From Leifsonia sp. 71-9 (lineage in GTDB: Bacteria > Actinomycetota > Actinomycetes > Actinomycetales > Microbacteriaceae): a stretch of DNA of 49,639 nucleotides. The position numbers and the translations under genes were made by a program. Positions 17,826 through 44,541 of this stretch are shown piece after piece (within the stretch, counting starts at the first letter, position 1; each line of letters starts with the position of its first letter). The notes beneath the pieces are model-generated. The model was not told the origin of the DNA. It saw only the letters and a program-made list of their open reading frames with translations, and ran no database searches. Where the stretch lies: the NCBI RefSeq assembly GCF_001898805.1, contig NZ_MKVJ01000012.1:1-49639 (forward strand), read 5' to 3'.

Positions 17826-18107
17826 ATGAGCACACTCATTACCAACACCAGCGACGTCACTCGATTCGCGGCGGTGTTCTCCGCCGGAGACATGGCAGGC
17901 GACCTGGGGCCGACCCTGAGCTGCGGCGAGGTCGAGGCCCTGGCGGGGATGCTTCGAGCGATCGGGGAGCCAGCCAGCGCGGACATGTGGATCGAGGCGC
18001 ACGCCGCGGGCGACGACGAAGGCGATGCCCACTACCGCTCCCCTGCGGCCGAGTACGTGGTGCCCATCGACCCGATGGAAGCCCTGCAATGTGACAGCTG
18101 CCAGTGA
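17826..18107 (+). CDS. Small protein ending in VPIDPMEALQCDSCQ
   Basis: A 93-aa protein. Residues 1-70 look like a small helical domain (SCGEVEALAGMLRAIGEPAS), and the last 18 residues end YVVPIDPMEALQCDSCQ. The same ending, YAVPVDPMDEMGCDSCQ, closes an unrelated 30-aa protein at 44541-44449, so the tail is likely a functional peptide, perhaps a metal site or targeting tag. It is preceded by structured element B and a purine-rich leader; palindrome site 4 follows 18 nt after the stop. No function recognised. Confidence 0.72.
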   Translation: MSTLITNTSDVTRFAAVFSAGDMAGDLGPTLSCGEVEALAGMLRAIGEPASADMWIEAHAAGDDEGDAHYRSPAAEYVVPIDPMEALQCDSCQ

Positions 18108-18139
18108 CTTGACCCCCAACGCCGGTAATAGTACTATTA
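18098..18139 (+). promoter_or_regulatory. Promoter with perfect palindrome site 4 over the -10
   Basis: -35 TTGACC is followed by a 17-bp spacer and -10 TACTAT. The perfect palindrome TAATAGTACTATTA (18126-18139) covers the -10. No gene begins directly downstream: GTG at 18143 gives only five codons. The 96 bp to the next palindrome may therefore be a leader or the scar of a lost gene. Confidence 0.6.
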
Positions 18140-18221
18140 GAGGTGAACGAAGGGCCATAAGTAGCCCAGTCGACATCCACCGGCACGAACCAGCAGGAAC
18201 ATAAAACAGCCCCAACGACCC

Positions 18222-18235
18222 TAACAGTACTATTA
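18222..18235. promoter_or_regulatory. Palindrome site 5 (TAACAGTACTATTA)
   Basis: A 13/14 match, 27 nt before ATG 18263. With site 4 it makes a pair on the same leader. Confidence 0.7.
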
Positions 18236-18262
18236 CCGTTAGATCACTCCATAGGAGAAGCC

Positions 18263-18499
18263 ATGTCCAAGATCATCGTCACTCGACTCGCAGACCTGCG
18301 GATCGGGGACCGCATCCTCAGCCACGGCGGCCGCATCTACCGCACGCCGCTGCGCGTCACCGACGAGCTGGGGCCGATCGAGTTCGGCTCGCCCGTGCGC
18401 GGCGTCCGCGTCGAGAACCCCAACCCGGTCAGCGGCATCGAGTGGGTGCTGTACCCGCCCCAGATGGACGGCCGAGAGATGGAGGTCGAGCGCTACTAG
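18263..18499 (+). CDS. Small hypothetical protein (beta-rich)
   Basis: A 78-aa protein, mostly predicted beta strands (LRIGDRILSHGGRIYRTPLR), ending in MDGREMEVERY. The early RIGDRIL segment resembles small SH3/PUA-like barrels, but I do not assign a family. ATG 18263 follows AGGAGAAGCC. It is flanked by palindrome sites 5 and 6, placing it in the same regulon as ardC, ssb and parA. Confidence 0.65.
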   Translation: MSKIIVTRLADLRIGDRILSHGGRIYRTPLRVTDELGPIEFGSPVRGVRVENPNPVSGIEWVLYPPQMDGREMEVERY

Positions 18500-18521
18500 G
18501 TCATTGCAACTCTATAAACCC

Positions 18522-18535
18522 CAACAGTACTGTTA
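18522..18535. promoter_or_regulatory. Palindrome site 6 (CAACAGTACTGTTA), promoter of ssb
   Basis: TACTGT within it can serve as -10, with TTGCAA as -35 at 18-bp spacing. It lies 29 nt before the ssb start. Confidence 0.65.
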
Positions 18536-18564
18536 GAGGCACCATCATTCTGGGAGGAATCGAA

Positions 18565-18951
18565 ATGAGCTACATCACTCGCACTGGAAACCTGGCCGAG
18601 ACGCCCACGCTCCGGGAGGGGGAGCACGGCCCGTACACCTACGCCCGCGTCATCGTCAGCGACCGCATCCGTCAGTCGGATGGCTCCTACAGCGACGGTC
18701 CGGCCACGGCCTACGACGTCGCCGTGAGCGGCAACCAGGCGCAGAACCTCGTGGACGCGGCCGAGGCAGGCGGAAACATCCGCGTTACCTTCTCCGGCGG
18801 CTACCGCATCACCGAGTACAAGGGCGAGCAGGGAACCCGGCTTCAGCACGAGGTCCGCGCCGACGAAATCGGTGTGAGCCTGCGCGGACAGAGCGTCACC
18901 GTCCAGCGCGCGACGGCCGCCGCCGACACCAACGACGACACCCCGTTCTGA
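18565..18951 (+). CDS. ssb: Single-stranded DNA-binding protein
   Basis: A 128-aa OB-fold SSB-like protein. It starts MSYITRTGNLAETPTL, has the typical GNLAxxPxL opening strand and AYDVAVSGNQAQNLVDAA, and ends in NDDTPF, the acidic tip that recruits partner proteins in bacterial SSBs. It is shorter than chromosomal SSB because the linker is brief. It would coat plasmid single strands during replication and after conjugative entry. GGGAGGAATCGAA precedes ATG 18565. It is controlled from palindrome site 6 and followed by a strong hairpin. Confidence 0.85.
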   Translation: MSYITRTGNLAETPTLREGEHGPYTYARVIVSDRIRQSDGSYSDGPATAYDVAVSGNQAQNLVDAAEAGGNIRVTFSGGYRITEYKGEQGTRLQHEVRADEIGVSLRGQSVTVQRATAAADTNDDTPF

Positions 18952-18960
18952 GTCGAAGCA

Positions 18961-18993
18961 GGGCCGGGGAGCTGCCCGACAGCTCCCCGGCCC
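18961..18993 (+). terminator. Strong hairpin after ssb
   Basis: GGGCCGGGGAGCTG (18961-18974) pairs perfectly with 18980-18993 across a 5-nt loop. There is only a weak T-rich tail. Confidence 0.65.
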
Positions 18994-19035
18994 TGTCACG
19001 CCACGCGCACACAACGCAGCAGCATGACGTGACGG

Positions 19036-19049
19036 TAACAGTACTATTA
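19036..19049. promoter_or_regulatory. Palindrome site 7 (TAACAGTACTATTA), upstream of parA
   Basis: A 13/14 match, 21 nt before the parA GTG. TACTAT inside it is a possible -10. It puts partition genes under the same control as ardC and ssb. Confidence 0.7.
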
Positions 19050-19070
19050 GACCCATTGGAGGTAACCAAC

Positions 19071-19868
19071 GTGACCGCTCGAATCTTCGCCCTCTGCAAC
19101 CAGAAGGGCGGCGTCGGCAAGTCCACGACCACGTTTCACCTGGCGCGCGCCGCGGTGCGTGCAGGCCGGCGCGTGCTCGCCGTCGACAACGACCCACAAG
19201 GCAACCTGACGACGATCGCCGCGGCCGAGGATGTAGGGGAGGACCAGGCCGGCCTTGCCGACGCGCTCAGCTCGCGCGCACCTGAGACCATCCGCGACGT
19301 CATCGTTCCCGGCGTCTGGCCCGGCCTCGACGTCGTGCCCACCAGTGGCGTCACGCTCGGCTACGTGCGCGACGAACTCGTGATCGCCGGAGCCGGCCGA
19401 GAAGGCCGCCTGCGCGAGGCCCTGGCCAGCGTCGTCGACGACTACGACCTGATCCTGATCGACTGCGCACCCAGCCTCGACCAGCTCACCATCAACGGCC
19501 TGACGGCCGCCGATGCCGTTGTGGTTGTCACCGAATCCAAGCTGTTCAGCGCCAACGGGCTCGGCCAGCTCCTCGACACGATCGAGAACGTCAGGGCCTA
19601 CTACAACCCCGGACTGAGCGTCGCGGGCGTCATCGTCAACAAGCACGAGGAAAAGACCGTCAGCGGCCGCACATGGCTGGACGAGCTGGGACAAGCCATC
19701 ACGGCCCGAGGGCTGCGGATGCTCTCACCCGTCGTCCCCAAGCGCGTCGTCATCTCCGACGCGGCCGAGGCCGCACGCGGCCTCGACGAGTGGGGCGGCT
19801 CCGAAGCGACAGAACTCGGAGCCATCTACGCCGACCACCTGACTGCGATCGAAGGAGCCGCATCATGA
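19071..19868 (+). CDS. parA: ParA partition ATPase
   Basis: A 265-aa protein with the deviant Walker A KGGVGKSTT (12-20), the DNDPQGN switch and LILIDCAPSLDQLTINGL, all canonical for ParA. Its small size, lacking an N-terminal HTH, is typical of type Ib partition ATPases. It drives segregation of plasmid copies on the nucleoid with the adjacent gene product. GTG 19071 is supported by TTGGAGG 8 nt upstream. Palindrome site 7 lies at its promoter, so either the regulon repressor or its own partner may regulate it. Confidence 0.92.
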   Translation: MTARIFALCNQKGGVGKSTTTFHLARAAVRAGRRVLAVDNDPQGNLTTIAAAEDVGEDQAGLADALSSRAPETIRDVIVPGVWPGLDVVPTSGVTLGYVRDELVIAGAGREGRLREALASVVDDYDLILIDCAPSLDQLTINGLTAADAVVVVTESKLFSANGLGQLLDTIENVRAYYNPGLSVAGVIVNKHEEKTVSGRTWLDELGQAITARGLRMLSPVVPKRVVISDAAEAARGLDEWGGSEATELGAIYADHLTAIEGAAS

Positions 19869-20290
19869 ACCGACCAGCACCACGCAAATCCAGCCTCGCC
19901 GGATCGAGCCCCATCACGCCGCCACCCGCGGCCGCGCCGACTGCCGTCGACGCCACCCGGTGGACGCAAGAACAGCACGAGGACGCCGACCAGGTAGAGC
20001 AGACCCGCCAGCTCCAGGCTGCCGAGCGCGCCGCGACGAAGCCCGCGCCACGCGAGCCGAAGTCACGGGCGAAGGTGTCGTTCTACCAAGACCCCGCCGA
20101 CACCGACCGCGTGCGCGGCGCGATCCTCTACACGATGACCACTGAGGGCAGCCGCAACCTCTCGCAGTTCATCCACAAGGCCGTCATGGCCGAGGTCGAG
20201 CGCCTGGAAGCCAAGTACAACAACGGGCAGCCGTTCCCGCCCGTGGGAGCCCGTGAGCTGCCCCAGGGGGCCGCTGCGGCCAACCTGTAG
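19865..20290 (+). CDS. ParA partner, ParB-like centromere-binding protein
   Basis: A 141-aa protein overlapping parA by ATGA. The N-terminal half is Pro/Ala-rich and disordered. The C-terminal half KVSFYQDPADTDRVRGAILY followed by SRNLSQFIHKAVMAEVERLE has the strand-helix-helix layout of ribbon-helix-helix partition proteins. It would bind a centromere near the operon and stimulate ParA. Assignment is by position and architecture. Confidence 0.75.
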   Translation: MNRPAPRKSSLAGSSPITPPPAAAPTAVDATRWTQEQHEDADQVEQTRQLQAAERAATKPAPREPKSRAKVSFYQDPADTDRVRGAILYTMTTEGSRNLSQFIHKAVMAEVERLEAKYNNGQPFPPVGARELPQGAAAANL

Positions 20291-20325
20291 ACCGTCCTCG
20301 AGTATCGATCCGGAAGGACCACACG

Positions 20326-21084
20326 ATGACCACCACACTGCAGGCGGTCGAGCCTGCCGAGCCCAACCCGGTAGCCGACGCGATCGCCGCACTCACCGCG
20401 GCGGCGCGTCAGACGCGCGTGCGCGGCGCCGGCACCGAGCAGGCCACCGTCGAGCCCGTCGATTTCGGAGAAATCGCCACCTACGTCCTCACGGCCGTTG
20501 CCGCCAACCTGGGCGGCGTTGAGGAGCTGTTGGCCGGCCGGCCCGGATCATGGGAAGCCGACTACGTGCGCCAGATCGTCCACAGCACCGCCGGCGACGA
20601 CGACGCCGAGCTGCTGCGCTACCGCACCGAGCCGGTGCGGCTGCCGTTCGACGCGGAGGATGTGTTCTACGACTTCGGTCTGGGCGACCTGTACGACGAC
20701 GAACGCGACGCGGCCGCAGAAGCCACGTTCACCGAGGGGATGACCGAGGAGCGGGCCGCGGCCGCGCAGCAGCTCGTCGAGGACGTCGAAGCGCTGTTCG
20801 CGCGCGACCTGGCCGCGTACGCCGAGGCGTACCTCACGGCAGCCCGCCAATACCTCACCGAACAAGGGATCACGTGCGGCGTCGAGCTGGTCACCACTCC
20901 GGTGGGTGAGATCCCAACCTGGGACGCACTCAGCGACCAGGTGCACGAGTACGCCCGCGCGAATGCGCCGCTGCCGATGACGGGGGAGGCCCCCGACTAC
21001 AGCGACGGCACGCCGGCCGACGCCCTGCGCCGTGCCGGCCTCACGTACACCGGTCGCGCACGGACGAACGGCGGCACCGCATGA
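20326..21084 (+). CDS. Hypothetical acidic protein
   Basis: A 252-aa soluble, strongly acidic protein of unknown family. It has an Ala-rich helical N-terminus, DAEDVFYDFGLGDLYDDERD in the centre, and a C-terminal helix followed by YSDGTPADALRRAGLTYTGR. GGAAGGA lies 9 nt before ATG 20326. It is separated from the partition pair by 35 nt and coupled to the next gene by ATGA, so these two probably act together. I do not recognise it. Confidence 0.7.
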   Translation: MTTTLQAVEPAEPNPVADAIAALTAAARQTRVRGAGTEQATVEPVDFGEIATYVLTAVAANLGGVEELLAGRPGSWEADYVRQIVHSTAGDDDAELLRYRTEPVRLPFDAEDVFYDFGLGDLYDDERDAAAEATFTEGMTEERAAAAQQLVEDVEALFARDLAAYAEAYLTAARQYLTEQGITCGVELVTTPVGEIPTWDALSDQVHEYARANAPLPMTGEAPDYSDGTPADALRRAGLTYTGRARTNGGTA

Positions 21085-21605
21085 CGAACTCCCGACTGGC
21101 AGAGGCCGCCCTTTCCAAGTACCGCTCTGAGCTGGCCGAGATTGAGGCCAAGCGCGCACAGGAAGCGGCCGAGCAAGAAGAACTCCGCTCCGAATGGTTG
21201 GCGCAGGAGACGAGCAAGCTCGCCCCGACGTACACCCGGCTCTTCCTGGCCAAGATGGGCTTGCCGGCGGACTCCGGATTCGCGGCCGATCTGCTCTGGT
21301 ACATGCCTCCCACCGCGACTTCCGCGGGCACGTTCGAACGGCGCGGCGACGGCACAGTGGTCATGACAGGAGGAATTTCTGGTGAAGACGTCCTCCACGC
21401 CGACATCGATGCCATCACGATCCGCGCCGCGGTCAACAACCGTTCAGAGGATGAGAACCCTCTCGAAGTCACGCTCGTCGACGACTCCGGCCTTGGCAAC
21501 CCGGAGGCCATCCCCTCCCTGTTCGCGCTCGGCCGGCTGATCACCGAAGCCCGGGAGCGGCTGGAACAACAGGCTACGGAGCGGTCGGCTGGCGACCGAG
21601 CCTGA
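21081..21605 (+). CDS. Hypothetical protein with N-terminal coiled coil
   Basis: A 174-aa protein. Residues 5-45 form a heptad-like charged helix (EIEAKRAQEAAEQEELRSEW), followed by a mixed domain and a closing helix LGRLITEARERLEQQATER. It is translationally coupled to the preceding gene (ATGA). No family recognised. It ends 10 nt from the stop of a convergent gene. Confidence 0.68.
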   Translation: MTNSRLAEAALSKYRSELAEIEAKRAQEAAEQEELRSEWLAQETSKLAPTYTRLFLAKMGLPADSGFAADLLWYMPPTATSAGTFERRGDGTVVMTGGISGEDVLHADIDAITIRAAVNNRSEDENPLEVTLVDDSGLGNPEAIPSLFALGRLITEARERLEQQATERSAGDRA

Positions 21606-21615
21606 CAAGGGACTC

Positions 21616-21942
21616 CTATCGCCGCGGGGGAATCGGCGGCCGGTCCCAACCATCCTCGATCGCGCCCCGCCACACCCATGCCGTACGCACGATGCCGTTG
21701 ACCGACGTCCAACGGACCTGAACGGCGCGATCCGTCCAGGCGATCGCCTCGCACTCTGGGCGGATCACCGTCTCCGGGAAACGCACCCACGCCCGCACCG
21801 GCCGCGGCTCCGCCGGCCGGTGAATCGGGTGGTGCTCGACGTCGAGCTCCGCATCGGTCAGACTCACCGGCTGGGCTCGGATCAGAATCTCCTCCACGCC
21901 GCGGCCGATCCCCATTTCGGGATATCGGCGGTTCGTGCTCAT
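21616..21942 (-). CDS. Hypothetical protein, divergent from a LexA-like box
   Basis: A 108-aa protein with an RPVRAWVRFPETVIRPE segment and a Trp-rich middle (VRWTSVNGIVRTAWVWRG); family unknown. The ATG is 6 nt from TCTAAT, consistent with a leaderless mRNA, and a LexA-like palindrome lies immediately upstream. It is therefore a candidate damage-inducible gene together with the divergent gene at 21987. Confidence 0.62.
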   Translation of the reverse strand: MSTNRRYPEMGIGRGVEEILIRAQPVSLTDAELDVEHHPIHRPAEPRPVRAWVRFPETVIRPECEAIAWTDRAVQVRWTSVNGIVRTAWVWRGAIEDGWDRPPIPPRR

Positions 21943-21962
21943 GCCCCCATTAGACCAGAGAT

Positions 21963-21978
21963 TCGAAAGTATGTTCGA
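21963..21978. promoter_or_regulatory. LexA-like SOS box between divergent genes
   Basis: TCGAAAGTATGTTCGA matches the actinobacterial LexA consensus TCGAAC-N4-GTTCGA with one difference. It contains TATGTT, a possible -10 for the rightward gene, and lies at -35 distance from the leftward one, so one site could repress both. Confidence 0.55.
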
Positions 21979-21986
21979 ATGGATTC

Positions 21987-22325
21987 GTGCGAACGATTCG
22001 GGTGGGGGAGAGCGACTGGCTGGTGCTCGACGACGCGATCCAACCGCGCTTCTTAATCCACCACGGGCCGGCCGTGAACAAGATCACCCGCGAAACGCTG
22101 ATGATGTACCGCGTCGACCATTGGGTCCTGAAACGTGCTGACCGGTGGCCATTGGGCTACTACGAAAGCCTCGCTGAGGCACAGGCCGCCGCCGAAGGCG
22201 AGCTAGGCACGCCGAAGTTCCTCGTCCCCATCACCGACCCGCACGGGCAGATCGTGACCCCGGAGGAACAGCGCGAGCGATGGAAGGCTGGCCTCGACCC
22301 ACGCAGCGGGACGCCGAGGCCGTGA
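21987..22325 (+). CDS. Small hypothetical protein under the LexA-like box
   Basis: A 112-aa protein starting at GTG 21987 (GTG 22002 is an alternative), with ESDWLVLDDAIQPRFLIHHG, a YYESLAEAQAAAEGEL helix and VPITDPHGQIVTPEEQRERW. The layout resembles small single-domain plasmid proteins, but no family is recognised. No Shine-Dalgarno sequence is visible, suggesting leaderless or near-leaderless translation from a promoter inside the box. It ends facing the 22329 gene with a 3-nt gap. Confidence 0.62.
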   Translation: MRTIRVGESDWLVLDDAIQPRFLIHHGPAVNKITRETLMMYRVDHWVLKRADRWPLGYYESLAEAQAAAEGELGTPKFLVPITDPHGQIVTPEEQRERWKAGLDPRSGTPRP

Positions 22326-22328
22326 AGC

Positions 22329-22601
22329 TCAGCCGGCCTGGCGACCGTCTGGATCGAAGGTCGTACCCCCGTCGTTGAGTAGCCGACTCACGTCCGCGTT
22401 GAGCGCCATTACCTGTTCCGGATCGTCCACGATCGCATCCACCATGAGTTCGAGATAGGCGTACGCCTCCGGCGGAGCCGTCGACGTCCCATTTCGCGCG
22501 AAGGCGCGCACCAGCTCGCGTATCTCGTTGAGCTGCCACTGCTGCCTGGCGATCAGCAACGCATCCCGAAGGTGAGGGTTCGCTTCTGGTTCATCGCTCA
22601 T
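22329..22601 (-). CDS. Hypothetical 90-aa helical protein
   Basis: Starts MSDEPEANPHLRDALLIARQ and is predicted mostly helical, with an acidic C-terminal half (LELMVDAIVDDPEQVMALNA). No family recognised. The start is set at ATG 22601; the frame open to 22694 overlaps the upstream gene. It lies 55 nt downstream of the membrane-protein gene in a three-gene minus-strand group led by an HTH regulator. Confidence 0.6.
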   Translation of the reverse strand: MSDEPEANPHLRDALLIARQQWQLNEIRELVRAFARNGTSTAPPEAYAYLELMVDAIVDDPEQVMALNADVSRLLNDGGTTFDPDGRQAG

Positions 22602-22656
22602 GCCATCGACACTCTCATACCCAGAGCTGACGAGCCCTCCCGCATTACCGGGCGGC

Positions 22657-22989
22657 CTACTTCCGGGACGCGACCGGTTCCATGCGGCCGACATGGTAGC
22701 CGGCCACCCAGGCGGGTGCGTCCTGGTCGCTCAGCTCTGCCGGAGCGACCACCGGTGCACCCTGCCGGGCAGCTCGTCGCCCAGCGTGGAACGGTCGAAA
22801 CGCATGCAGCCCTCCATCTGGGCGCCGACGCTCAGCGCGATCGCTCAGGACCATCCACACAACGACACCGATGCCGGCGACGATCACCACGCCGACGATG
22901 AACAGCACGGCGTTGTCCACGATGTTGGCCGCCCACTGCGGCAGGGTGGGCATGGGCCACGGGTCCGGGACCGCTGTGTACCCCCGCAT
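22657..22989 (-). CDS. Small single-pass membrane protein
   Basis: A 110-aa protein with one membrane helix (NAVLFIVGVVIVAGIGVVVW) after a short N-terminus containing two Trp-Pro pairs; the C-terminal 60 residues are basic and cytoplasmic. ATG 22989 is coupled to the stop of the HTH gene (TGATG). Function unknown; co-expression with a DNA-binding protein suggests an accessory transfer or exclusion role, which is speculative. Confidence 0.65.
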   Translation of the reverse strand: MRGYTAVPDPWPMPTLPQWAANIVDNAVLFIVGVVIVAGIGVVVWMVLSDRAERRRPDGGLHAFRPFHAGRRAARQGAPVVAPAELSDQDAPAWVAGYHVGRMEPVASRK

Positions 22990-23384
22990 CAGCGGTGACC
23001 CCACGCGGCGCGGATGCCGTCGCGCACATCGTCTGCGGCTCCCAGGGGCGCTAACGTCGCGTGCGACACCAAGGTGTCACCGTCCCGTTCAAAACGCTTG
23101 GCGATGCGTCCCACCTCGCTCTTGCTGAGCCCGGTGCTCGCGGCGACGTCGCGGACGCTGTGGCCGTCGACGAGGAGGGCGAACACCGCTTGCTCCTCCA
23201 CCTGGTCGAGCACGTGGGATGCGATGGACGCCTGCCGGCGCGCGCGGTCGATTGCGCCTTTACCGTGCTCGCCACGGCCTACTGCGAACGCGGACTGAAA
23301 AGGCCCGCGGGCGATCCGCTCCTCAGTGGTGAGCGAGTCATGCCATCTGAGCCAATCGAGGTATCCGCCGTCTTGCTGTCCCAT
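22989..23384 (-). CDS. HTH DNA-binding protein, probable autoregulator
   Basis: A 131-aa protein. The segment AVFALLVDGHSVRDVAASTG followed by LSKSEVGRIAKRF is a sigma-region-4-like helix-turn-helix. The ATG at 23384 lies inside GTCCCATGCTTGGGAC, and a second copy, GTCCCGACATTGGGAC, lies 27 bp upstream. A -10 TAGTGT sits between them, 7 nt from the ATG. Two operators bracketing a near-leaderless start strongly suggest negative autoregulation. It leads the three-gene group that continues to 22329. Confidence 0.75.
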   Translation of the reverse strand: MGQQDGGYLDWLRWHDSLTTEERIARGPFQSAFAVGRGEHGKGAIDRARRQASIASHVLDQVEEQAVFALLVDGHSVRDVAASTGLSKSEVGRIAKRFERDGDTLVSHATLAPLGAADDVRDGIRAAWGHR

Positions 23385-23420
23385 GCTTGGGACACTACAC
23401 CATCGTCCCGACATTGGGAC
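23378..23420. promoter_or_regulatory. Two GTCCC-N6-GGGAC operators around the HTH promoter
   Basis: 16-bp palindromes at 23378-23393 and 23405-23420, centre to centre 27 bp (about 2.5 helical turns). The first overlaps the start codon of the HTH gene. Confidence 0.68.
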
Positions 23421-23489
23421 AGGGGGCAGGTTCAGAAACGATCGTTAGCGCAAGCGACCCGGCGGGCCATAGCGGTGCCCGACGACCAG

Positions 23490-23516
23490 GCTGGTGCCGC
23501 CCGAGATGGCACCAGC
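23490..23516 (+). terminator. Hairpin terminator or attenuator before the secreted-protein operon
   Basis: GCTGGTGCC (23490-23498) pairs with GGCACCAGC (23508-23516), followed by TTTGATGTT on the plus strand. It insulates the island from upstream transcription or attenuates its leader. Confidence 0.6.
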
Positions 23517-23628
23517 TTTGATGTTCTCGGATGCTCGTGGAGCTCTCGCGCTTGGTACTTGCGTCCCCTAGACAGGGCGTTCTAGACTCCGGCTCAGCTT
23601 CACGTTCACTGAGGATTGGGGAGATATC

Positions 23629-23985
23629 GTGAAAAAGCGTTCAATCATTGGGGTTGCAGGTGCTGCAGCTCTTGTCGCTGCTTCTGTCATTGGATTCAGC
23701 GCACCGGCACAGGCATCCATCACTCAGTGCGGCAGTAACCGCGCGTGCGCCTGGACTGACTCCAGCTATGCCGGAGCCTTCGGATCGTGGACCAGCAGCC
23801 AGTCGTCGCTTGCGGGGTTCCACGACGTCATCTCCTCCGTCGCCAACAACCGAACTGCCTATATCGGCTGGTTCAGCGACCCCGGTTACTCGGGTTCATT
23901 GTTCCAGCAGCCCGGAGGAGCCGCGGGCTTCTTCAATTGGCCTGACTGGCGTAACGACTCGTTCGACTCCCTCTACTTCTACTGA
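23629..23985 (+). CDS. Small secreted two-repeat protein (crystallin/I36 inhibitor-like)
   Basis: A 118-aa precursor. Residues 1-29 are a Sec signal ending APAQA; the mature ~89 residues begin SITQCGSNRACAW with two Cys likely in a disulfide. Two repeats follow the beta/gamma-crystallin or peptidase-inhibitor-I36 pattern: CAWTDSSYAGAFGSW and IGWFSDPGYSGSLF, each followed by a turn. The C-terminus is aromatic (DSLYFY). GTG 23629 follows GGGGAGATATC. It heads a five-gene island with a lipoprotein, membrane-fusion protein and MacB-like transporter. It could be a secreted inhibitor or a bacteriocin; I cannot decide which. Base composition is lower in GC than the plasmid backbone. Confidence 0.75.
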   Translation: MKKRSIIGVAGAAALVAASVIGFSAPAQASITQCGSNRACAWTDSSYAGAFGSWTSSQSSLAGFHDVISSVANNRTAYIGWFSDPGYSGSLFQQPGGAAGFFNWPDWRNDSFDSLYFY

Positions 23986-27878: not shown

Positions 27879-27884
27879 CGACGC

Positions 27885-34744: not shown

Positions 34745-34814
34745 GACTCGCTCCTCGATTCTTCATCGTACCGAGAACGGTTCTGATTACGGTTCTCAAC
34801 TACATTAACTAATT

Positions 34815-34830: not shown

Positions 34831-34865
34831 TTGACGTAAAGTGGGTGATGGCGAAAGGAGGTCGC

Positions 34866-35801: not shown

Positions 35802-35815
35802 CACAGGGACCATTG

Positions 35816-36451: not shown

Positions 36452-36456
36452 CTTGC

Positions 36457-37395: not shown

Positions 37396-37396
37396 C

Positions 37397-39307
37397 TCAG
37401 GCTCGCTCCGGTCTTGGAGACTCCGGCCGAGCCTCGACCACCCGCTGACCCAAAACCAGCAGCAGCACGAACACAGCAATGGCGGCGATCGCCCAGAGCA
37501 GCACGGCCGCGATGAGCTGATCGAGCGCGGGAGTCACGCCCAACGCGGGCAAGGTCACCCCGTACCACGCAGGGAGGATACCTCCGGGGACGAAAGCGAC
37601 CACGACCGCGAGCAAGCCCACTGCCAGGACCACCGCCATGGCGATCCCCACCGCCTGCGCCAACAGGCGCTGTCCTTCGCCGAGCGTGCGCAACAGTGAC
37701 GCAGCGAACAGCGTCGTCACCCCGAACACCAGGACTGTCGTGAGGGTCCGGCCCACCGGGTCCTGCACCGCCCAACCCAGCCACGGCGATAGAAACACGG
37801 TGCCGAGCAGCACAACCAGAGCACAAGCCGACAGCCACGGCGTCCGGAGCGGCACTGCCATCGCTCGACTTCCTAGTACCCAGCTCGTCCATTCGCGCGT
37901 ACCGAGGCTGCCGTCCCCCCGAAGTCTCACGACCGTCTGAAGCAAGCGAATCGGCTGCGCTGCGACAACCAGAATTGCCGAAAGCACACCACCGAGCAGA
38001 AGCAGAGTCGTGTACGCCGCAAACGAGAACGTTGCATAAGCCCCGGGAAGCGAACAGAACGCGAACACGATGACCACGGCACACCCGATCGCGGCGACCA
38101 TCCGCGATCGGGGCCAGCTGCCGCTTCGACGTGCCGCGATCGCGCCGTAGAGGTAGGACCCAAAGCCGAGGACTACAACGAGCACCGCTGCGGCGTCGAA
38201 CACCCACGCGTCCATGAGCCGGGCGATGCCCGGTGCCAACGGTAACCGGTCACCAGTGAGCTGCTCAGCCTTCGTCGCCAACAGGATCTGACCACCCGGA
38301 GTCTCTGTCCGAGAGAGCGTTGCTCCTGTCCCCATCGCGACGCCCATAACCACAAGCTCCCAGAGAGCGAGGGAGCCAAAGGCGAGCCGGCGCCGCAGCG
38401 CAGGCGCATCCATGGAACCGAACCGTCGAATCACGTAGGTTCGTTGCGCCCATCCGAACGCCACCAGAAGGAGGAGGGCGACCACCTTCACGGACAGGAG
38501 CCGACCGTAGTCCGTGGTCAGGAGCTGTGCTGGATCGCTCAGACGAACGAGTGCGCCTGCCAACCCGGAAATGGTCACCGCGCACAACCCCGCCAGTGCG
38601 ATCGCTGAATAGCGACGCACCAACGCAACAAATGTGCGCCCATCAACGGTCGCGACATAGACCACCGCGGCCAGACCACCAACCCACACCGCCGCTCCCG
38701 CGACGTGCAGCCACAGCGCAACCGTCGCCGTGACGTGATTTCCAGCCCCGGCGGCGTGCCCCTGGAGCGCGAGTGGAACCAGCGCAGCGAAAGCCAAGAT
38801 GGCAGCCGCGGCCACGCCTGCCTGCCCACGGGCCGCGAACGCCACAACACTGATCGTCGCAGTCATCAGGATTGTGGCGAACCACCCTTGGCCGACCGCG
38901 ATCTGTGTGAAGAACTGAGCAAGGCTAGGACCGAGCATGTTCGCCTCAACCGGCCCCGTCAAGCTGATCGAGGTCATGACCGCAGCAATGCAGCTGGCGA
39001 CCAGCCAGCAGGCGGAACACCAGGGCGCCGCGTCCAGGAGCCGGTTCCACGACCGTAATCCGACCGGTACGCAGAAAGCTGCAACGACGAGCACACCGAT
39101 CGTGGCCGCAGCCGCCAGATCGACGACCACTTTCACAGCCGGCAACCCATACGTCACCGCCGGCCCCGGATTGAAGATCGACCCATCCGGCTGGACGGTG
39201 AGCAATGCCAGCACCAGCGCAGCAGACAACGCTGTAATGGCGAGAGCGGCAAGCGCAGCGATCGCACCTCGCGTTGGGGCGGATCGCGTCGACGTTGCCC
39301 CGGTCAC
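37397..39307 (-). CDS. copD: CopD-domain copper membrane protein
   Basis: A 636-aa protein with about fourteen helices. The CopD region contains ATVALWLHVAGAAVWVGGLA and YSAIALAGLCAVTISGLAGA, which hold the conserved His/Trp pattern. The remaining C-terminal ~290 residues are hydrophobic helices without clear CtaG motifs, whereas the adjacent gene supplies CtaG; the usual actinobacterial CopD-CtaG fusion is thus split here. Role: copper transport across the membrane, with CopC as donor. Confidence 0.87.
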   Translation of the reverse strand: MTGATSTRSAPTRGAIAALAALAITALSAALVLALLTVQPDGSIFNPGPAVTYGLPAVKVVVDLAAAATIGVLVVAAFCVPVGLRSWNRLLDAAPWCSACWLVASCIAAVMTSISLTGPVEANMLGPSLAQFFTQIAVGQGWFATILMTATISVVAFAARGQAGVAAAAILAFAALVPLALQGHAAGAGNHVTATVALWLHVAGAAVWVGGLAAVVYVATVDGRTFVALVRRYSAIALAGLCAVTISGLAGALVRLSDPAQLLTTDYGRLLSVKVVALLLLVAFGWAQRTYVIRRFGSMDAPALRRRLAFGSLALWELVVMGVAMGTGATLSRTETPGGQILLATKAEQLTGDRLPLAPGIARLMDAWVFDAAAVLVVVLGFGSYLYGAIAARRSGSWPRSRMVAAIGCAVVIVFAFCSLPGAYATFSFAAYTTLLLLGGVLSAILVVAAQPIRLLQTVVRLRGDGSLGTREWTSWVLGSRAMAVPLRTPWLSACALVVLLGTVFLSPWLGWAVQDPVGRTLTTVLVFGVTTLFAASLLRTLGEGQRLLAQAVGIAMAVVLAVGLLAVVVAFVPGGILPAWYGVTLPALGVTPALDQLIAAVLLWAIAAIAVFVLLLVLGQRVVEARPESPRPERA

Positions 39308-39504
39308 GACGGATCCTGCTCACCGGCCTGCGCGGAACCGGCTGCCGACACGCGTTGCGCGCGCTGCCGCTTCTCCTCGCGCGCGTACGCTTCACGTTCA
39401 CGCCGATCAGCGCGAAATATTGATCGCAGCACGAACCAGAAAACGAGTCCCACCAACACCGTTGGTGTCAGAGACCACAGAGCATTGGTCCAAAAGTCGT
39501 CCAT
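39304..39504 (-). CDS. Small membrane protein upstream of copD
   Basis: A 66-aa protein beginning MDDFWTNALWSLTPTVLVGL, with one membrane helix (TVLVGLVFWFVLRSIF) and a highly charged tail RADRREREAYAREEKRQ. Similar short proteins are widespread in actinobacteria, function unknown. ATG 39504 follows GAAGGTGAAG; the longer frame to 39561 is rejected. It overlaps copD by ATGA. Confidence 0.75.
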   Translation of the reverse strand: MDDFWTNALWSLTPTVLVGLVFWFVLRSIFRADRREREAYAREEKRQRAQRVSAAGSAQAGEQDPS

Positions 39505-39581
39505 CTTCACCTTCACAAACCGTCGAACACACGGCTCGCCGAGCAGGGCGTGCGCGTGCAAAATCCCGGAACGGACGGTGA

Positions 39582-39929
39582 TCAGATTCGAAGTATGCCC
39601 AGCAGTCCCAACAGTGAAGGCGGCGCGGGCGACTCTCGTTGCGGAATGGCCACAGCAGCCGGCGTCGGCCGCTCGGTCCTGAATCGGACTTCGACCACGA
39701 CCAACGAATCATGAATCGGGGTCGCAGCGCCCGCCGTGGCGCACAACGCCGCGCAGAATTCGGAATCGCTGTGATTGGAATCCGTGTCGCCGACACTCAC
39801 TGGCTGTGACCAAGACGTGCCCACGGCTGCGTGTGCTGCATCGGAAGAGTGGCCGAAGCCGACGCCGGCGATCACCGCGGCGACAAGGACGAGTAGGAAG
39901 ATGTGCACCACGCGCAGCGTTCTACTCAC
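39582..39929 (-). CDS. DUF6153-like envelope protein
   Basis: A 115-aa protein with one N-terminal helix (IFLLVLVAAVIAGVGFGH), an external loop with FCAALCATAG (two Cys) plus several His, and a hydrophobic C-terminus (SLLGLLGILRI). It is of the type annotated DUF6153 near copper genes; its Cys/His content suggests metal binding outside the membrane. GTG 39929 is favoured because GGAGGTAGAG precedes it; ATG 39941 would include that site. Confidence 0.7.
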   Translation of the reverse strand: MSRTLRVVHIFLLVLVAAVIAGVGFGHSSDAAHAAVGTSWSQPVSVGDTDSNHSDSEFCAALCATAGAATPIHDSLVVVEVRFRTERPTPAAVAIPQRESPAPPSLLGLLGILRI

Positions 39930-40062
39930 CTCTACCTCCATTTGCTCGGCTCAGCGTACCCAGTTCAACTGTGAGAGGCCCCTCTCAGAGCCCATCGGTC
40001 GCACTTCGTCGGCGCAGCGGCTCCTCTTGCCACCGCGGACCGGCAAACGGATGATGTGAACC

Positions 40063-40611
40063 ATGACCGGTCGGGGCTCACTGAGCCCACCCTCGCACGC
40101 GCCGACCGACGACGCACGCCGTACGTTATTGGGGCACATCGGTACCCCCGCTGCGATCTACGGCACGATCGTCTATGCGAGCGTCGTCGCTGCGACTTCG
40201 ATCGGTCTCAAGGAATCAAGCTCGGCATGGCAAGTGCTCATCTTCGCCGTCGTCAGCGTCGTCGTGTTCTGGGTCGCTCACGTCTATTCGACTGCGCTCG
40301 GTTCCCACGGGCATGCCGACCATCTCCGAGACCGGATAAGAGATTCGATCAGACAAGCGCTGAAGGAATCCAGCGGCATGTTGGAGGCAGCCGTCGTCCC
40401 ATCCATTCCCCTGCTGCTCGCGGCCTTCGGTGTGATGACGACCGACACCGGCATATCGATCGCACTCTGGGTCGCCGTCGTCATGCTTGCTCTGCTGGGC
40501 TACCTCGTCCTCTGGCTTCGCGCTCGACCATGGTGGGCCTGCATAACCGCAGCGCTGATCAGCGCTCTACTCGGCATTCTGGTGATCCTGCTCAAGACGG
40601 CACTCTATTGA
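40063..40611 (+). CDS. Hypothetical four- to five-helix membrane protein
   Basis: A 182-aa protein with helices near YGTIVYASVVAATSIGL, WQVLIFAVVSVVVFWVAHVY, AVVPSIPLLLAAFGVMTTD, IALWVAVVMLALLGYLVLW and ITAALISALLGILVILL. A soluble loop, SHGHADHLRDRIRDSIRQ, is His/Arg-rich. No family recognised. It lies at the edge of the metal island, convergent with a CDF pseudogene. No clear ribosome site. Confidence 0.65.
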   Translation: MTGRGSLSPPSHAPTDDARRTLLGHIGTPAAIYGTIVYASVVAATSIGLKESSSAWQVLIFAVVSVVVFWVAHVYSTALGSHGHADHLRDRIRDSIRQALKESSGMLEAAVVPSIPLLLAAFGVMTTDTGISIALWVAVVMLALLGYLVLWLRARPWWACITAALISALLGILVILLKTALY

Positions 40612-40685
40612 CCAGGAGCCGTGAGTGGTCCCGTCGTGGCCTTGCGTATCCGCCGGAAGTCCGCCTCTCAAGGCGCACGGTTTGA

Positions 40686-41398
40686 TCAGCGATCGGCGGC
40701 GATGGGGGTGACGACGAACTCGTCGAGGTTGCGCAGCTCGCCGCGGACGTGTTCGGTCGCGTGCTCTGCCACGTGCGTGGCGTCGCGGAGGTTTTCGGCG
40801 TTCGTCGTGATGACTGCCGAGCCGAGGAGCCGGTGGCCGACCCAGCGCAGCTTGACGCTCCGGATACCGGTCACGCCCTTCGTGTGCGTCAAGCTGCGCT
40901 CGACGCGGTCGATCAGACCCGGGTCGACAGCATCCATCAGGCGCGCCCCGACGGACTTCGCGGTCCCCCCCAGCAGGATCAGGATCGAGATCGCAATGAG
41001 GAGGCCGATGATCGGGTCGGCGATCGGAAACCCGAGAAGGACGCCGATTGCGCCGAGCACAACCGACAGCGAGGTGATGCCATCCAGTCGCGCGTGCACA
41101 CCGTCGGCGACGAGCGCCGCGGAGCCGATCTTCCGGCCAACGCGGTTCGGTAGATTGCGACAAGCTCGTTGCCGGCGAAGCCGACCAGACCGGCGGCGAT
41201 CAGCCACCACGCGTTCTCCACCGGGCGCGGATGGACGAACCGGTCGATCGCCTCCCACCCGGCGACCACGGCCGACAGTGCGACGACGAAGATGATCAGC
41301 TGTCGCCAAACGACGCGGACGAGTTGCAATCGCGTGTCCGATAGGCGGTCGACCAGCGCACAGTCCTCGACTGCTGGGGCCTGCGTGTGTGAACCGCG
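40686..41398 (-). pseudogene. Truncated and frameshifted CDF metal exporter
   Basis: The frame from about 41153 upstream encodes RQLIIFVVALSAVVAGWEAI through AGLVGFAGNELVAIYR. The conserved continuation VGRKIGSAALVADGVHARLD and the rest down to stop 40686 are one frame over. A single-base deletion between 41136 and 41153 explains it. Upstream, the frame meets TGA at 41399 and the first two helices are missing, so the gene was cut before the shift mattered. The resolvase region at 41491 lies just beyond the cut. Confidence 0.85.
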
Positions 41399-41490
41399 TC
41401 ATCACGCGGGAGTGCGGGCGAAGGTCAATGCCCGTTAGACCCGCCCGATGAAATGCCCGCTGATGGGACGCTAACTGCAACACTGTTCTC

Positions 41491-42060
41491 ATGCTGATCG
41501 GATACGGCCGCGTCTCCACCGCCGAACAAGACCTCACCGCGCAACGCGACGCGCTCAGGGCGCTCGGCGTCGATGTCGAGAACATCCACGTCGACCACGG
41601 GCTGACCGGCACCAACCGAGAGCGGCCCGGGCTGCGCGCGGCACTGGCAGCGGTGCGCTCCGGTGACACCCTCGTGGTCACCAAACTCGACCGGCTCGCC
41701 CGCTCCCTACCGGACGCACGCGACATCGCAGCAGAACTCACCCGCAAAGGCGTCACGCTCAGCCTCGGCGGCAGCATCTACGACCCCACCGACCCGGTAG
41801 GCCGGCTCCTGTTCAACGTCCTCGGCATGGTCGCCGAATTCGAAGCCGACCTCATCCGCATGCGAACCCGCGAAGGAATGGCCGTTGCCCGCGCCAACGG
41901 CAGACTGAAAGGTAAGAAGCCGAAACTCTCGTCAGCCCAGCGCAAGCACTTACTCGCCCTCCACGCCGCCGGCACTCACACCCAGAGCGAGCTCGCCGAA
42001 CTGCTGCGCGTCTCCCGCGCGACGATCTACCGAGAACTCCAACGCGACCGCGCCAAATAG
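41491..42060 (+). CDS. Serine recombinase (resolvase/invertase) 1
   Basis: A 189-aa protein of the Tn3-resolvase size class. The catalytic Ser is in IGYGRVSTAEQDL, with supporting Arg in LVVTKLDRLARSL. The C-terminal HTH is SELAELLRVSRATIYRELQR. It could resolve plasmid multimers or be left from a transposon. Upstream 41400-41490 contains AATGCCCG twice (near 41428 and 41450), a possible part of its res site. It abuts the truncated CDF gene, consistent with a past recombination event. Confidence 0.9.
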   Translation: MLIGYGRVSTAEQDLTAQRDALRALGVDVENIHVDHGLTGTNRERPGLRAALAAVRSGDTLVVTKLDRLARSLPDARDIAAELTRKGVTLSLGGSIYDPTDPVGRLLFNVLGMVAEFEADLIRMRTREGMAVARANGRLKGKKPKLSSAQRKHLLALHAAGTHTQSELAELLRVSRATIYRELQRDRAK

Positions 42061-42266
42061 CGCTGCCAGAAAGCCGCCATTTAGCGCCGCGACTCACAAC
42101 CAAGCCGCCACCAAGAACCGCCAGAAAACCGCCACACAGCGACCAAAGTCACAGCCGAGAAATCCCGTCCCGAAACTCAGTCCCGAAACCAATTTGACCC
42201 GAAATGCCGCCTATAACGTTTTCGGGATAAGTGATAGAATGGACGGAACAGGCGAGAGGAGCCAGC
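42061..42266. other. Intergenic stretch with short repeats and a toxin-antitoxin promoter
   Basis: About 206 nt of C/A-rich DNA with several CCGCCA units and TCCCGAAAC twice, the latter inverted as TTTCGGGA near 42220. TAGAAT at 42235-42240 is a good -10 for the antitoxin gene; no strong -35 is seen. No gene. Confidence 0.5.
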
Positions 42267-42461
42267 ATGGCCCGCAGCACCGCGACGATTCAACCGACTG
42301 TCGACGTTGATGGCGAGCTGTCGATGATTGAGAAGGCTCAGCAGCTTGCCGGTCACTTCCCGGATCACGAAGCGCTTGATCGCGCTCGTCGCATCCTCGA
42401 CGGTCGTGTGACCGCTGCTGAGGCGTACGTCGAGCTGGACGCGAAGTACGCCCAAGGGTGA
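42267..42461 (+). CDS. VbhA-like antitoxin of a Fic toxin
   Basis: A 64-aa protein, mostly helical, with HFPDHEALDRARRILDGRVT followed by AYVELDAKYAQ. Small VbhA-type antitoxins supply an inhibitory helix that blocks ATP in the Fic active site. The canonical S/T-x-x-x-E-G motif is not obvious here, so the class is assigned mainly from its size and coupling to the fic gene. ATG 42267 follows GAGAGGAGCC. Confidence 0.68.
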   Translation: MARSTATIQPTVDVDGELSMIEKAQQLAGHFPDHEALDRARRILDGRVTAAEAYVELDAKYAQG

Positions 42462-43237
42462 GTGAGGACGACAAGTACACCTACCCCGACAGCGGGGGAG
42501 TGCTCGTCAACTCGAAGGGGATACGCAACGCCGCCCGGCTCGATGCCGCGATGAACGACTATGCCTCTGTCGCAATGGCGGAGCTGCGCACCGAGCCGAC
42601 GCCGGATCGGTTGGACTACGACTACCTGCGCCGCATCCATACGCGGCTGTTCGAGCGCATCGTGCCTGGCATCGCCGGTAAGCTCCGCGACGTCGACGTG
42701 CAAGCGACCGGGGTCGGGATCGCGTACTGCCGTCCCGAGTACATCGAGCCCAACCTCACTCGCCTGTTCGACCAGCTCGACCGCGAGGACTACCTGACGG
42801 GGCTGGACGCCGACACGTTCGCTGCGCGGCTCGCAGACCGTTGGGGGGACCTTTCGGCCATCCATCCCTACCGTGACGGGAACACGCGCAGCCAAAGCCT
42901 CTACGTCACCGTGCTCGCTGAGCGAGCCGGGCACCCGATCGACTGGCGGCGCGTCAACGTGGACGAGCTGCGCACCGCTCGGCTGCGCGCCGTCGTCGGC
43001 AACACCAAGCCGCTGGCCGATTATCTCGGTGCCAGGCTCATGAGCTCCGAAGCTCCACGGCAGAGCCCGTCCCTGTCGAGCACGGCGGGCGTCAGCTCGG
43101 CGCTACACGCGAGTTTTCCGCAACCCGCTACTGAAGCCACGCGGAGAACGCCGCCGGCAGGCGGCATCCAGGAGCGCGGGAGTGCCCCCCACACGTCCGG
43201 AGCTCGGTATGGCATGGATCGAGGGATGGGGCGATGA
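42458..43237 (+). CDS. fic: Fic-domain toxin
   Basis: A 259-aa protein; the Fic motif HPYRDGNTR (136-144) retains the catalytic His and the GN-R anion site. Fic enzymes usually transfer AMP to target proteins such as topoisomerase subunits. The last ~60 residues (from about 200) are Ser/Pro/Gly-rich and look disordered, unlike the usual compact ending. GTG 42458 overlaps the antitoxin stop (GTGA); the downstream resolvase gene overlaps it by ATGA. Together they likely stabilise the plasmid. Confidence 0.87.
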   Translation: MSEDDKYTYPDSGGVLVNSKGIRNAARLDAAMNDYASVAMAELRTEPTPDRLDYDYLRRIHTRLFERIVPGIAGKLRDVDVQATGVGIAYCRPEYIEPNLTRLFDQLDREDYLTGLDADTFAARLADRWGDLSAIHPYRDGNTRSQSLYVTVLAERAGHPIDWRRVNVDELRTARLRAVVGNTKPLADYLGARLMSSEAPRQSPSLSSTAGVSSALHASFPQPATEATRRTPPAGGIQERGSAPHTSGARYGMDRGMGR

Positions 43238-43815
43238 GCAACGTTGTCGGATACGCGCGGGTGTCGCGTCATGACCAGAACCCGGCAGCCCAGGAGGCCG
43301 AGCTGCGCGCGGCAGGCGCCGGGCGGGTGTTCGTCGACCACGGCGAGTCCAGCCGTGTGAAAGACCGCCCGCAGTGGCTCGCATGCCTGGACTACCTGCG
43401 CCCCGGCGACACACTGCTGGTGCGCCGGCTCGATCGCCTCGCGGGCAGCGAGAAGATGGCCATCGAGACGATCACGGACCTGCACGAGCGGGGCGTGAAC
43501 ATCAAGAGCCTCACCGAGCCGGACATCGACACGACAACCCCGATGGGCCGAGCCCTGTTCGGCATCGTTGCCGTGTTCGCGCAGCTCCGCGTCGACACGA
43601 TCCGGGAGAACACCGTACGGGGCCTGGCTCACGCGCGCGCTGAGGGTCGCGTGGGAGGCCGACCCTCGGTGATGACAGCGGAACGGACCGCCGCGGCCGC
43701 GCGGATGCGTGAGCAGGGCGACAGCATCGCACAGATCGCGGCCGTGCTCGGCGTCGGCAAGTCATCCGTCGCGCGCGCGCTTGCGAAGCACGACCAGAGC
43801 CAGCCGTCGGCCTGA
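43234..43815 (+). CDS. Serine recombinase (resolvase) 2
   Basis: A 193-aa protein with catalytic VGYARVSRHDQNP, LLVRRLDRLAG, and C-terminal HTH GDSIAQIAAVLGVGKSSVAR. It is clearly different from the recombinase at 41491, so it is not a recent duplicate. It is third in the fic operon, an arrangement combining killing and multimer resolution for plasmid maintenance. Confidence 0.9.
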   Translation: MSNVVGYARVSRHDQNPAAQEAELRAAGAGRVFVDHGESSRVKDRPQWLACLDYLRPGDTLLVRRLDRLAGSEKMAIETITDLHERGVNIKSLTEPDIDTTTPMGRALFGIVAVFAQLRVDTIRENTVRGLAHARAEGRVGGRPSVMTAERTAAAARMREQGDSIAQIAAVLGVGKSSVARALAKHDQSQPSA

Positions 43816-43829
43816 AGGAGGTATGGACG

Positions 43830-44237
43830 ATGAGTGAACACCAGGCGAGCGCCCCATCACAGCTCATCATGGCGGGCGCGTTCATCAAGCGACCTGGCAT
43901 GTTCCTGGGATTGCCGATCCGGTTCGACCGGGTAACAGCCTTCATCGCCGGATACACCCTCGCGATCGACCAGGTGCGCGGGGCTCTGTCGCCCAACGAC
44001 GCCAACCGGTTCCGACCGCTCGGAATCGAGGGACAGTTCCAGGAGCAACTACGCGAACAAGGACGGTTGCGGTGGAACCGATGGGATCTGACGATCGCGG
44101 CAGAAGCCACCGGCTGGACGGACGACGACCCGCCTCTGATCGAGGAGTTCACGGAGGAACAGCACCGAGCTGCAATCGCGCATTTAGAGCCGCTTCTAGA
44201 TCGCATGTTCAGCCTGCCCGAGCAATTCATCCCCTAG
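43830..44237 (+). CDS. Hypothetical 135-aa protein
   Basis: Soluble protein with IKRPGMFLGLPIRFDRVTAF near the N-terminus, QFQEQLREQGRLRWNRWDLT in the middle and an acidic helical C-terminus (EEFTEEQHRAAIAHLEPLLD). AAGGAGG precedes ATG 43830 by about 8 nt. It follows resolvase 2 by 14 nt, perhaps in the same operon. No family recognised. Confidence 0.7.
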   Translation: MSEHQASAPSQLIMAGAFIKRPGMFLGLPIRFDRVTAFIAGYTLAIDQVRGALSPNDANRFRPLGIEGQFQEQLREQGRLRWNRWDLTIAAEATGWTDDDPPLIEEFTEEQHRAAIAHLEPLLDRMFSLPEQFIP

Positions 44238-44263
44238 CCCAAAATCCCCCAAATCGGAGCTGT

Positions 44264-44452
44264 TCACTGCTCGTCGTTCAGCCACTCTGCGACCTCTGAG
44301 CTGAGGTATCGGACGGTGCGGGGAGTGATGCGGATGTAGGCCGGCCCGATGCCCTGATCCCGTAGGCGGCGCAGGTGCTCGACGTCGACGCCGAGCTGCG
44401 CGGCGAGGGCCTTGGGTGTGAGCATCGTGGGCCGCTTCTGGTCGTCGTTCAC
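44264..44452 (-). CDS. Excisionase-like HTH protein
   Basis: A 62-aa protein with a small MerR/excisionase-type HTH: LTPKALAAQLGVDVEHLRRL followed by GIGPAYIRITPRTVRYLSSE. GTG 44452 overlaps the stop of the 30-aa gene upstream (GTGA), so the two are coupled. It could control the resolvase/fic region or the small-peptide gene itself. Confidence 0.75.
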   Translation of the reverse strand: MNDDQKRPTMLTPKALAAQLGVDVEHLRRLRDQGIGPAYIRITPRTVRYLSSEVAEWLNDEQ

Positions 44453-44541
44453 TGGCACGAGTCGCATCCCATCTCGTCCATCGGGTCGACGGGTACGGCG
44501 TACCCTCCGATGTTCTCGATCTGCTCGGTTTCCCTGTTCAT
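44449..44541 (-). CDS. 30-aa protein ending in VPVDPMDEMGCDSCQ
   Basis: A tiny gene: ATG at 44541, GGAAGG 7 nt upstream, TGA at 44449 overlapping the next start. Residues 1-13 are acidic (MNRETEQIENIGG) and the rest is YAVPVDPMDEMGCDSCQ. The same ending closes the 93-aa protein at 17826-18107. The shared tail, ribosome site and overlap with the HTH gene together make this a real gene in spite of its length. Two Cys in CDSC may bind metal. It lies downstream of noncoding element C. Confidence 0.72.
   Translation of the reverse strand: MNRETEQIENIGGYAVPVDPMDEMGCDSCQ

Follow-up and report, generated by a model that had tools for sequence, protein, structure and literature searches.

Why would two small proteins with nothing else in common end in the same few residues? 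The question is raised by a 49,639-nucleotide contig of Leifsonia sp. 71-9 (NZ_MKVJ01000012.1), hereafter the window, in which a 93-amino acid (aa) protein (17826-18107, plus strand) and a 30-aa protein (44541-44449, minus strand) share a C-terminal VP[IV]DPM-x4-CDSCQ and are unrelated over the remainder of their lengths. Both open reading frames (ORFs), noted in a preliminary description of the sequence, were confirmed, and the window is a plasmid with two copies of this tail. The tail is very probably the C-terminal redox tail of the class I ribonucleotide reductase (RNR) alpha subunit, NrdA, which has been split off in NrdA-bearing Microbacteriaceae and is separately encoded. Judging from the sequences, the detached form is a microprotein, commonly of about 21-33 residues, or the end of another small protein.

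A C-terminal tail shared by unrelated small proteins

In the 93-aa protein, residues 1-72 are of a phage/plasmid type (residues 6-72 match phrog_1178, E = 8.2e-23) and residues 77-93 form the predicted RNR tail (tail profile E = 2.2e-11), with the module YVVPIDPMEALQCDSCQ-stop at 18054-18107 on the plus strand. The 30-aa protein, MNRETEQIENIGGYAVPVDPMDEMGCDSCQ (44449-44541, minus strand), is a putative free-standing tail that contains the module YAVPVDPMDEMGCDSCQ-stop (44449-44502, minus strand); it matches the tail profile with E = 3.0e-15, being itself one of the 25 rows of that profile. Searched with a DNA pattern for CDSCQ-stop, the window gives two matches, whereas 100 dinucleotide shuffles average 0.00. 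As the preliminary description anticipated, the 30-aa gene escaped annotation, having no coding sequence (CDS) of its own on the matching RefSeq plasmid NZ_CP043643.1, and from its sequence we judge it to be a real gene.

The genome as a whole contains the CDSCQ-stop pattern three times and a reversed control pattern not once; the third gene, located upstream of a hadA-like gene, encodes the 27-aa protein MDYENDTVGGYAVPVDPMDLLQCDSCQ. With a profile built from 25 tails, the total rises to five tail genes, including MNSTKIEEYYVPVDPMDDLQCESCQ between nrdA and nrdB. Many other genomes encode the ending as well, so that the first of the refuting outcomes named in the preliminary description does not apply: the pattern matches in 27 of 27 genomes of the genus and in 132 of 299 genomes of the family, the latter in part by chance (e.g., L154, L163, and L189). 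A phylum-wide sample yielded matches in 7 of 396 genomes, Leifsonia sp. 71-9 included, and none of the other six encodes a DPM...CDSCQ tail. Tail genes are multicopy in some chromosomes and occur also on several plasmids; Leifsonia sp. TF02-11 has 11 tail profile matches, nine of which extend to the last profile position, and one of the two partial matches (L470) showed no tail ORF on reading. The earlier suggestion that the tail is a selected module common to otherwise unrelated proteins is borne out by 222 distinct DNA versions, in which the residues are kept although the codons differ (AGY encodes Ser in 123, TCN in 96), D, P, M, C, C, and Q being fixed by the search pattern. The cysteine pair lies at the very C-terminus, a position that the search pattern likewise dictated for most sequences in the set.

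The tail had no useful match in Pfam, PHROGs, or NCBIfam (the best sub-threshold hits were a zinc finger, E = 0.038, and CpcD, E = 0.13), and the free tail had none in the PDB. Three other identities were considered and dropped: a leader or arrest peptide, in view of a protein sequence kept in unrelated contexts and the existence of fused forms; a Pup-like tag, the Pup C-terminus being GG[QE]; and a toxin-antitoxin or RiPP system, no partner gene having been seen, though no systematic search was made.

NrdA without C-terminal cysteines

Nearly all cells depend on RNR for their DNA precursors, and the C-terminal tail is regarded as part of the enzyme itself. In class I and class II RNRs, C-terminal cysteines re-reduce the active-site disulfide and are in turn reduced by cellular redoxins (PMC9531940, PMC6382339, PMC4520616); a CXXC tail is given there for 1737 of 2022 class I alpha sequences (PMC9531940). 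The genome of Leifsonia sp. 71-9 encodes a single RNR alpha of 829 aa in which the catalytic-cysteine motifs and KTTYY are kept. Its only cysteines are 227, 305, 441, and 456, none of them C-terminal, and a close relative has class I alphas as its best matches (5im3, E = 1.3e-192). None of the 120 homologs of the NrdA C-terminal region that were listed, out of 1683, has a cysteine in the last 60 residues. In six nrd-linked loci, alpha is terminated by a stop codon of its own and the tail is encoded in a distinct ORF, in one of them (L192) beyond an in-frame stop.

A fused tail is present in NrdA of three other actinobacterial families, 71-75% identical to the Leifsonia protein and ending in ...CPVDPQERLQCESCQ. 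The 11 fused loci that were read to the end conform to CPxDPxExxxC[DE][SA]CQ (for example, ...VVDGSACPIDPQERLQCESCQ), and in a twelfth, the contig end falls inside the tail; the C-termini of seven class I alphas at a greater distance (38-43% identical) read ...PECEACQ or ...CE[AV]CQ. The detached and fused profiles align over 23 columns (hhalign probability 98, E = 3e-13). With the detached profile, the fused tail inside the nrdA frame of genome G214 was retrieved (E = 3.4e-7); with the fused profile, searches of whole genomes returned the single tails of G436 (7.4e-7) and G474 (3.8e-6) and no match in the NrdE control genomes G422 and G423. Homology with the fused tail and loss of the tail from NrdA are both evident at this level.

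Within the Microbacteriaceae, a family of soil and freshwater bacteria, tail genes co-occur with one type of RNR. One genome was taken from each of 77 genera and Leifsonia sp. 71-9 was added, giving 78; a CDSCQ pattern match was present in 34 and absent from 43 of the 77, and the RNR type was read afterwards. The alpha subunit is NrdA in 40 genomes and NrdE in 38 (that of G443, broken over contig ends, was typed by match length). Profile search found tail genes in 40/40 NrdA genomes versus 0/38 NrdE genomes (Fisher's exact p = 4e-23, kinship ignored), and the pattern-negative genomes G453, G457, G478, G486, and G494 proved to be NrdA-type with CESCQ tails. No cysteine follows KTTYY in 38 of the 39 NrdA ends that were read, the exception, G430, continuing via an apparent frameshift; the NrdE ends read CVSC[MAT]L in 39/39 loci, and NrdE has kept a tail of its own. 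By script, nrdA is followed by a tail ORF at 36 of 39 loci, a number that becomes 37 with G430, which was read by eye. Among named genomes, for which the best 80 of 556 relatives were used (79 loci complete), a cysteine after KTTYY occurs in 0 of 79 NrdA loci and the tail adjoins nrdA in 77 of 79; Leifsonia, Clavibacter, Naasia, Amnibacterium, Glaciihabitans, Microcella, Salinibacterium, Frigoribacterium, Humibacter, and Pontimonas are among the genera represented.

The preliminary description had offered a metal ligand, a targeting tag, or a peptide signal as the function of the ending. A C-terminal CxxC and a conserved end behind a variable start would suit a metal site, tag, or signal peptide with no link to RNR, but such a role is hardly credible given the homology to the fused NrdA tail and the co-occurrence with tailless NrdA, and the evidence points instead to a thiol-disulfide exchange tail of RNR.

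Another possibility is that programmed frameshifting or stop readthrough produces the tail solely as a C-terminal extension of NrdA, in which case the enzyme would not truly be split. In the majority of nrd operons, the tail ORF either overlaps the stop codon of nrdA or comes immediately after it, and a single relative frame prevails (27/36 and 65/77), as an extension would lead one to expect. All three relative frames occur, however (27/5/4 and 65/7/5), and the in-frame stop of L192 separates nrdA from its tail. Together with tail genes located elsewhere in four genomes and the phage and plasmid copies, which mostly have no nrdA nearby, these features make an obligatory extension very improbable.

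Tails apart from nrdA: unlinked genes, fusions, and mobile copies

Across 33 neighborhoods, the tail lies between the class I RNR alpha and beta genes in 6 and upstream of hadA-like, hadB-like, and murB genes in 19 (14 of these within 200 nt); 7 tails are elsewhere, and 1 (L189) is the chance pattern match. The names nrdA, nrdB, murB, and hadA/hadB-like were checked by family search on single representatives, with HadA and HadB below the NCBIfam cut-offs, and many members of the neighbor clusters are long wrong-strand ORFs that were treated as shadow ORFs of high-GC DNA. The recurrent neighbors seen were nrdA/nrdB, hadA-like/murB, and phage genes. Terminator-like hairpins were noticed by eye 3' of many chromosomal tail copies.

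Four genomes (G474, G436, Naasia lichenicola, and a Homoserinimonas metagenome-assembled genome) combine a tail-free nrdA-nrdB gap with a tail gene elsewhere. G474 and G436 (0.9 Mb) each encode one RNR alpha and exactly one tail profile match, located about 1.1 kb from hadA-like genes in G474 and between hadB-like and murB-like genes in G436; in the other two genomes, the unlinked tail is beside a hadA-like gene. With no tail in the gap and the tail gene elsewhere, the tail should act in trans, and NrdA in these four genomes must be served in this manner if it needs a tail at all.

R1 tails of other organisms serve the neighboring subunit in trans. For the free tail, the following mechanism can be proposed. 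With each NrdA turnover, a pair of active-site cysteines (C227 and C456 in the Leifsonia protein, assigned by motif) would become oxidized; the free tail would enter the active site in trans, its CxxC dithiol would reduce the disulfide, and the oxidized tail would be re-reduced by NrdH, thioredoxin, or mycoredoxin. Tail copies beside nrdB or near hadA-like genes would supply the cell. Phage and plasmid copies, including the two in the window, would add to this supply or take it over when their own replication needs deoxynucleoside triphosphates (dNTPs). The homology, the loss of the tail from NrdA, the co-occurrence, the genomes with unlinked tails only, and the NrdH fusions are seen in the sequences themselves; the electron transfer in trans, the identity of the reductant, and the benefit to phages and plasmids are inferred.

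NrdH-redoxin is a small, separate dithiol protein that serves RNR. It differs from the detached protein in being a folded, glutaredoxin-like donor of electrons to the tail, whereas the detached protein would be the tail itself; the free tails matched no glutaredoxin family in Pfam or NCBIfam and have too few residues for a glutaredoxin-like domain. In two cases, NrdH-like and tail sequences are joined. A 101-aa protein of Naasia lichenicola (L466), named NrdH-redoxin by NCBI, ends in PVDPEDGLDCDSCQ; it matches the solved NrdH structure 4fiw with E = 1.5e-9, falls below the cut-offs of the NCBIfam NrdH models, and in the alignment has one of the two NrdH active-site cysteines replaced. On contig 26 of G489 (L353), an NrdH-like stretch ends in VPIDPMDALYCESCQ (4fiw, E = 3.1e-8; TIGR02194, E = 2e-6, below cut-off); its frame is apparently broken upstream, and a Pfam glutaredoxin match is absent.

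The phrog_1178-type domain of the 93-aa protein represents a different kind of partner. Among the 31 homologs found for this protein, CD[SG]CQ is kept in 19 of 22 aligned rows (21 plus the 93-aa protein itself) and not in 3. Mycobacteriophage PainterBoy and plasmids of Rathayibacter and Cryobacterium carry the domain without the tail, and it is found inside a 232-aa tailed protein of a Clavibacter plasmid. The tail is therefore an add-on to a mobile-element protein. On the Rathayibacter festucae plasmid NZ_CP047181.1 (L473), the 93-aa protein has a relative without the tail, and a gene annotated as nrdH lies two genes downstream of that relative; this hints at a possible connection of the phrog_1178 domain with RNR as well.

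Fusions to unrelated domains (phrog_1178, L195, and the 232-aa Clavibacter protein) and tails far from nrd genes would also be expected if the detached tails had become small, general-purpose dithiol carriers whose present clients are enzymes other than RNR. We consider this quite unlikely: the tail sequence stays near the NrdA-fused form, the tails occur only with NrdA-type RNR among the 78 family genomes, and two fusion partners resemble NrdH, an RNR reductant.

In a viral collection, at least 120 stretches carry a tail gene, and their ORFs, with starts assumed, end in the same kind of tail; CxxCQ was required by the search pattern, so that its conservation in these 120 is not independent evidence. 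A peptide search of 50,697 phage records gave seven weak matches (E from 0.004 to 10). Five of these, together with two duplicates, come down to four phages, the ORFs of which were read: Pontimonas phage phiPsal1, Clavibacter phages CN1A and CMP1 (two records each), and Pseudanabaena phage Pan2; the seventh record, from a single-stranded RNA phage, was taken as chance. CxxCQ is kept in these four named phages, which were found without the exact pattern. Of the 124 phage loci (120 from the collection and the 4 named), 60 lie on the lysis side, near either an M23 peptidase or a pair of recurrent small ORFs, and 36 near terminase large subunit, portal, and head genes; 28 belong to neither cluster, and for 3 of these (CN1A, CMP1, and Pan2), holin or endolysin-like genes are annotated upstream. 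Given that nrdA or nrdB is also present in only 2 of the 120 collection stretches, which are partial, it seems that most of the phages contribute nothing but the tail, to work with the NrdA of the host. A cluster of WhiB-like regulators was seen about 1 kb after the tail gene in 32 of the 124 loci. Pan2 (L127, ON968453.1) is described from a cyanobacterium and has an RNR tail ORF, MDDFDTIDGFACPNDPADLVSCESCQ, at 6001-6075; its true host may be an actinobacterium with a tailless NrdA.

The phage and plasmid tails could instead act as decoys or regulators; by occupying NrdA or the redoxin, they would depress dNTP synthesis in the host, and only the chromosomal copies would carry electrons. This would fit the location of phage copies among late genes (lysis side or terminase-portal), late for dNTP supply, and the coexistence of several tail variants within a single genome. 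It sits poorly with the fact that the phage copies found retain the two cysteines as well as the terminal Gln, an observation independent of the search pattern only in the four named phages, and we regard it as unlikely.

Several observations count against a split-off, separately encoded NrdA tail. The small tail ORFs are predicted, with assumed start codons; the 40/40 and 0/38 counts are non-independent events in related genomes; and the late-gene position of the phage tails is not accounted for by dNTP supply. In addition, a genome of another actinobacterial family (G930, L312) encodes, besides a second RNR alpha, a tailless NrdA that is 64% identical to that of Leifsonia sp. 71-9; the stretch downstream of this nrdA contains no tail ORF, and the genome gives no profile match.

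Turning to the window itself, the Leifsonia shinshuensis INR9 plasmid unnamed2 (NZ_CP043643.1) covers 85% of its first 24.8 kb at 100% identity, and the window genes include a type IV secretion coupling protein and a ParA-like ATPase. Relaxase and MobC genes are present on NZ_CP043643.1, yet its PLSDB type is non-mobilizable. When the RefSeq CDS of that plasmid is transferred to the window, a helix-turn-helix protein outside the tail system maps to 44264-44467 (minus strand), its annotated start overlapping the end of the 30-aa ORF. Small genes 3' of the 93-aa gene are accompanied by a palindrome, TAATAGTACTATTA (18126-18139), and by three AACAGTACT sites (18223-18231, 18523-18531, and 19037-19045), which look like candidate operator sites of a single regulator. 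The plasmid also carries metal genes, for a CopD/CtaG-type copper protein (37397-39307, minus strand) and a cation efflux protein (40686-41777, minus strand).

Known split reductases and the meaning of a free tail

As far as sequences can tell, the system has the makings of a split RNR: the tailless NrdA keeps its active-site cysteines, and a second polypeptide with the tail co-occurs with it. The CXXC tail of class I alphas (PMC9531940) is a covalent part of alpha; it is homologous to the detached tail, which aligns end to end with the fused actinobacterial CPVDPQERLQCESCQ, whereas the Leifsonia-type tail has a separate gene and its own copies on mobile elements. A close counterpart is the split class II NrdJa/NrdJb of Pseudomonas aeruginosa, which has a catalytic subunit without C-terminal redox cysteines and a smaller polypeptide that performs dithiol exchange, both being needed for activity (PMC4520616). 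By this precedent, the free tail would do the same for tailless NrdA. NrdJb is a class II protein of 229 residues encoded in the same operon (PMC4520616), unlike the class I, mostly bare tail reported here, which is often multicopy, sometimes unlinked, and also phage- or plasmid-borne. In 2015, the same source called the proteobacterial split NrdJ the only split RNR known from a non-viral organism (PMC4520616). Class Ia NrdA of Aeromonas phage Aeh1 is likewise encoded in separate genes and still functional; there, the homing endonuclease gene mobE is inserted between nrdA-a and nrdA-b (PMC3653736), whereas here only the terminal redox tail is separate. No endonuclease was seen in the nrdA-nrdB gap sequences that were read.

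A search of the open-licence literature found no report of a free RNR tail and no paper on "CDSCQ." The association of the tail with RNR has not gone wholly unseen, given the RefSeq name of a 33-aa plasmid tail protein, "ribonucleotide-diphosphate reductase subunit beta" (WP_223361114.1; L379, Leifsonia sp. ZF2019 plasmid NZ_CP065038.1, 4980-5081). The "beta" label is not what the sequence shows, but the link to RNR is present.

A more far-reaching proposal, which we judge somewhat short of probable, is that the RNR redox arm now exists as a third subunit in its own right, horizontally mobile and diffusible, a microprotein of about 25 residues that is essential for the only RNR of many hosts and multicopy in some. 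Plasmids and many actinobacterial phages would use tails of their own, some of them fused to redoxin or other domains, to turn the dNTP synthesis of the host to their own benefit. A free, mobile tail of this size, if real, would constitute a natural trans-complementation system in which the reduction step can be titrated, swapped, or inhibited apart from catalysis, and a possible phage auxiliary gene mostly invisible to annotation. Within one bacterial family, it would account for a number of small ORFs that are misnamed or lack annotation; it would also offer a hint on hosts, a tail-bearing phage probably infecting a bacterium with a tailless NrdA.

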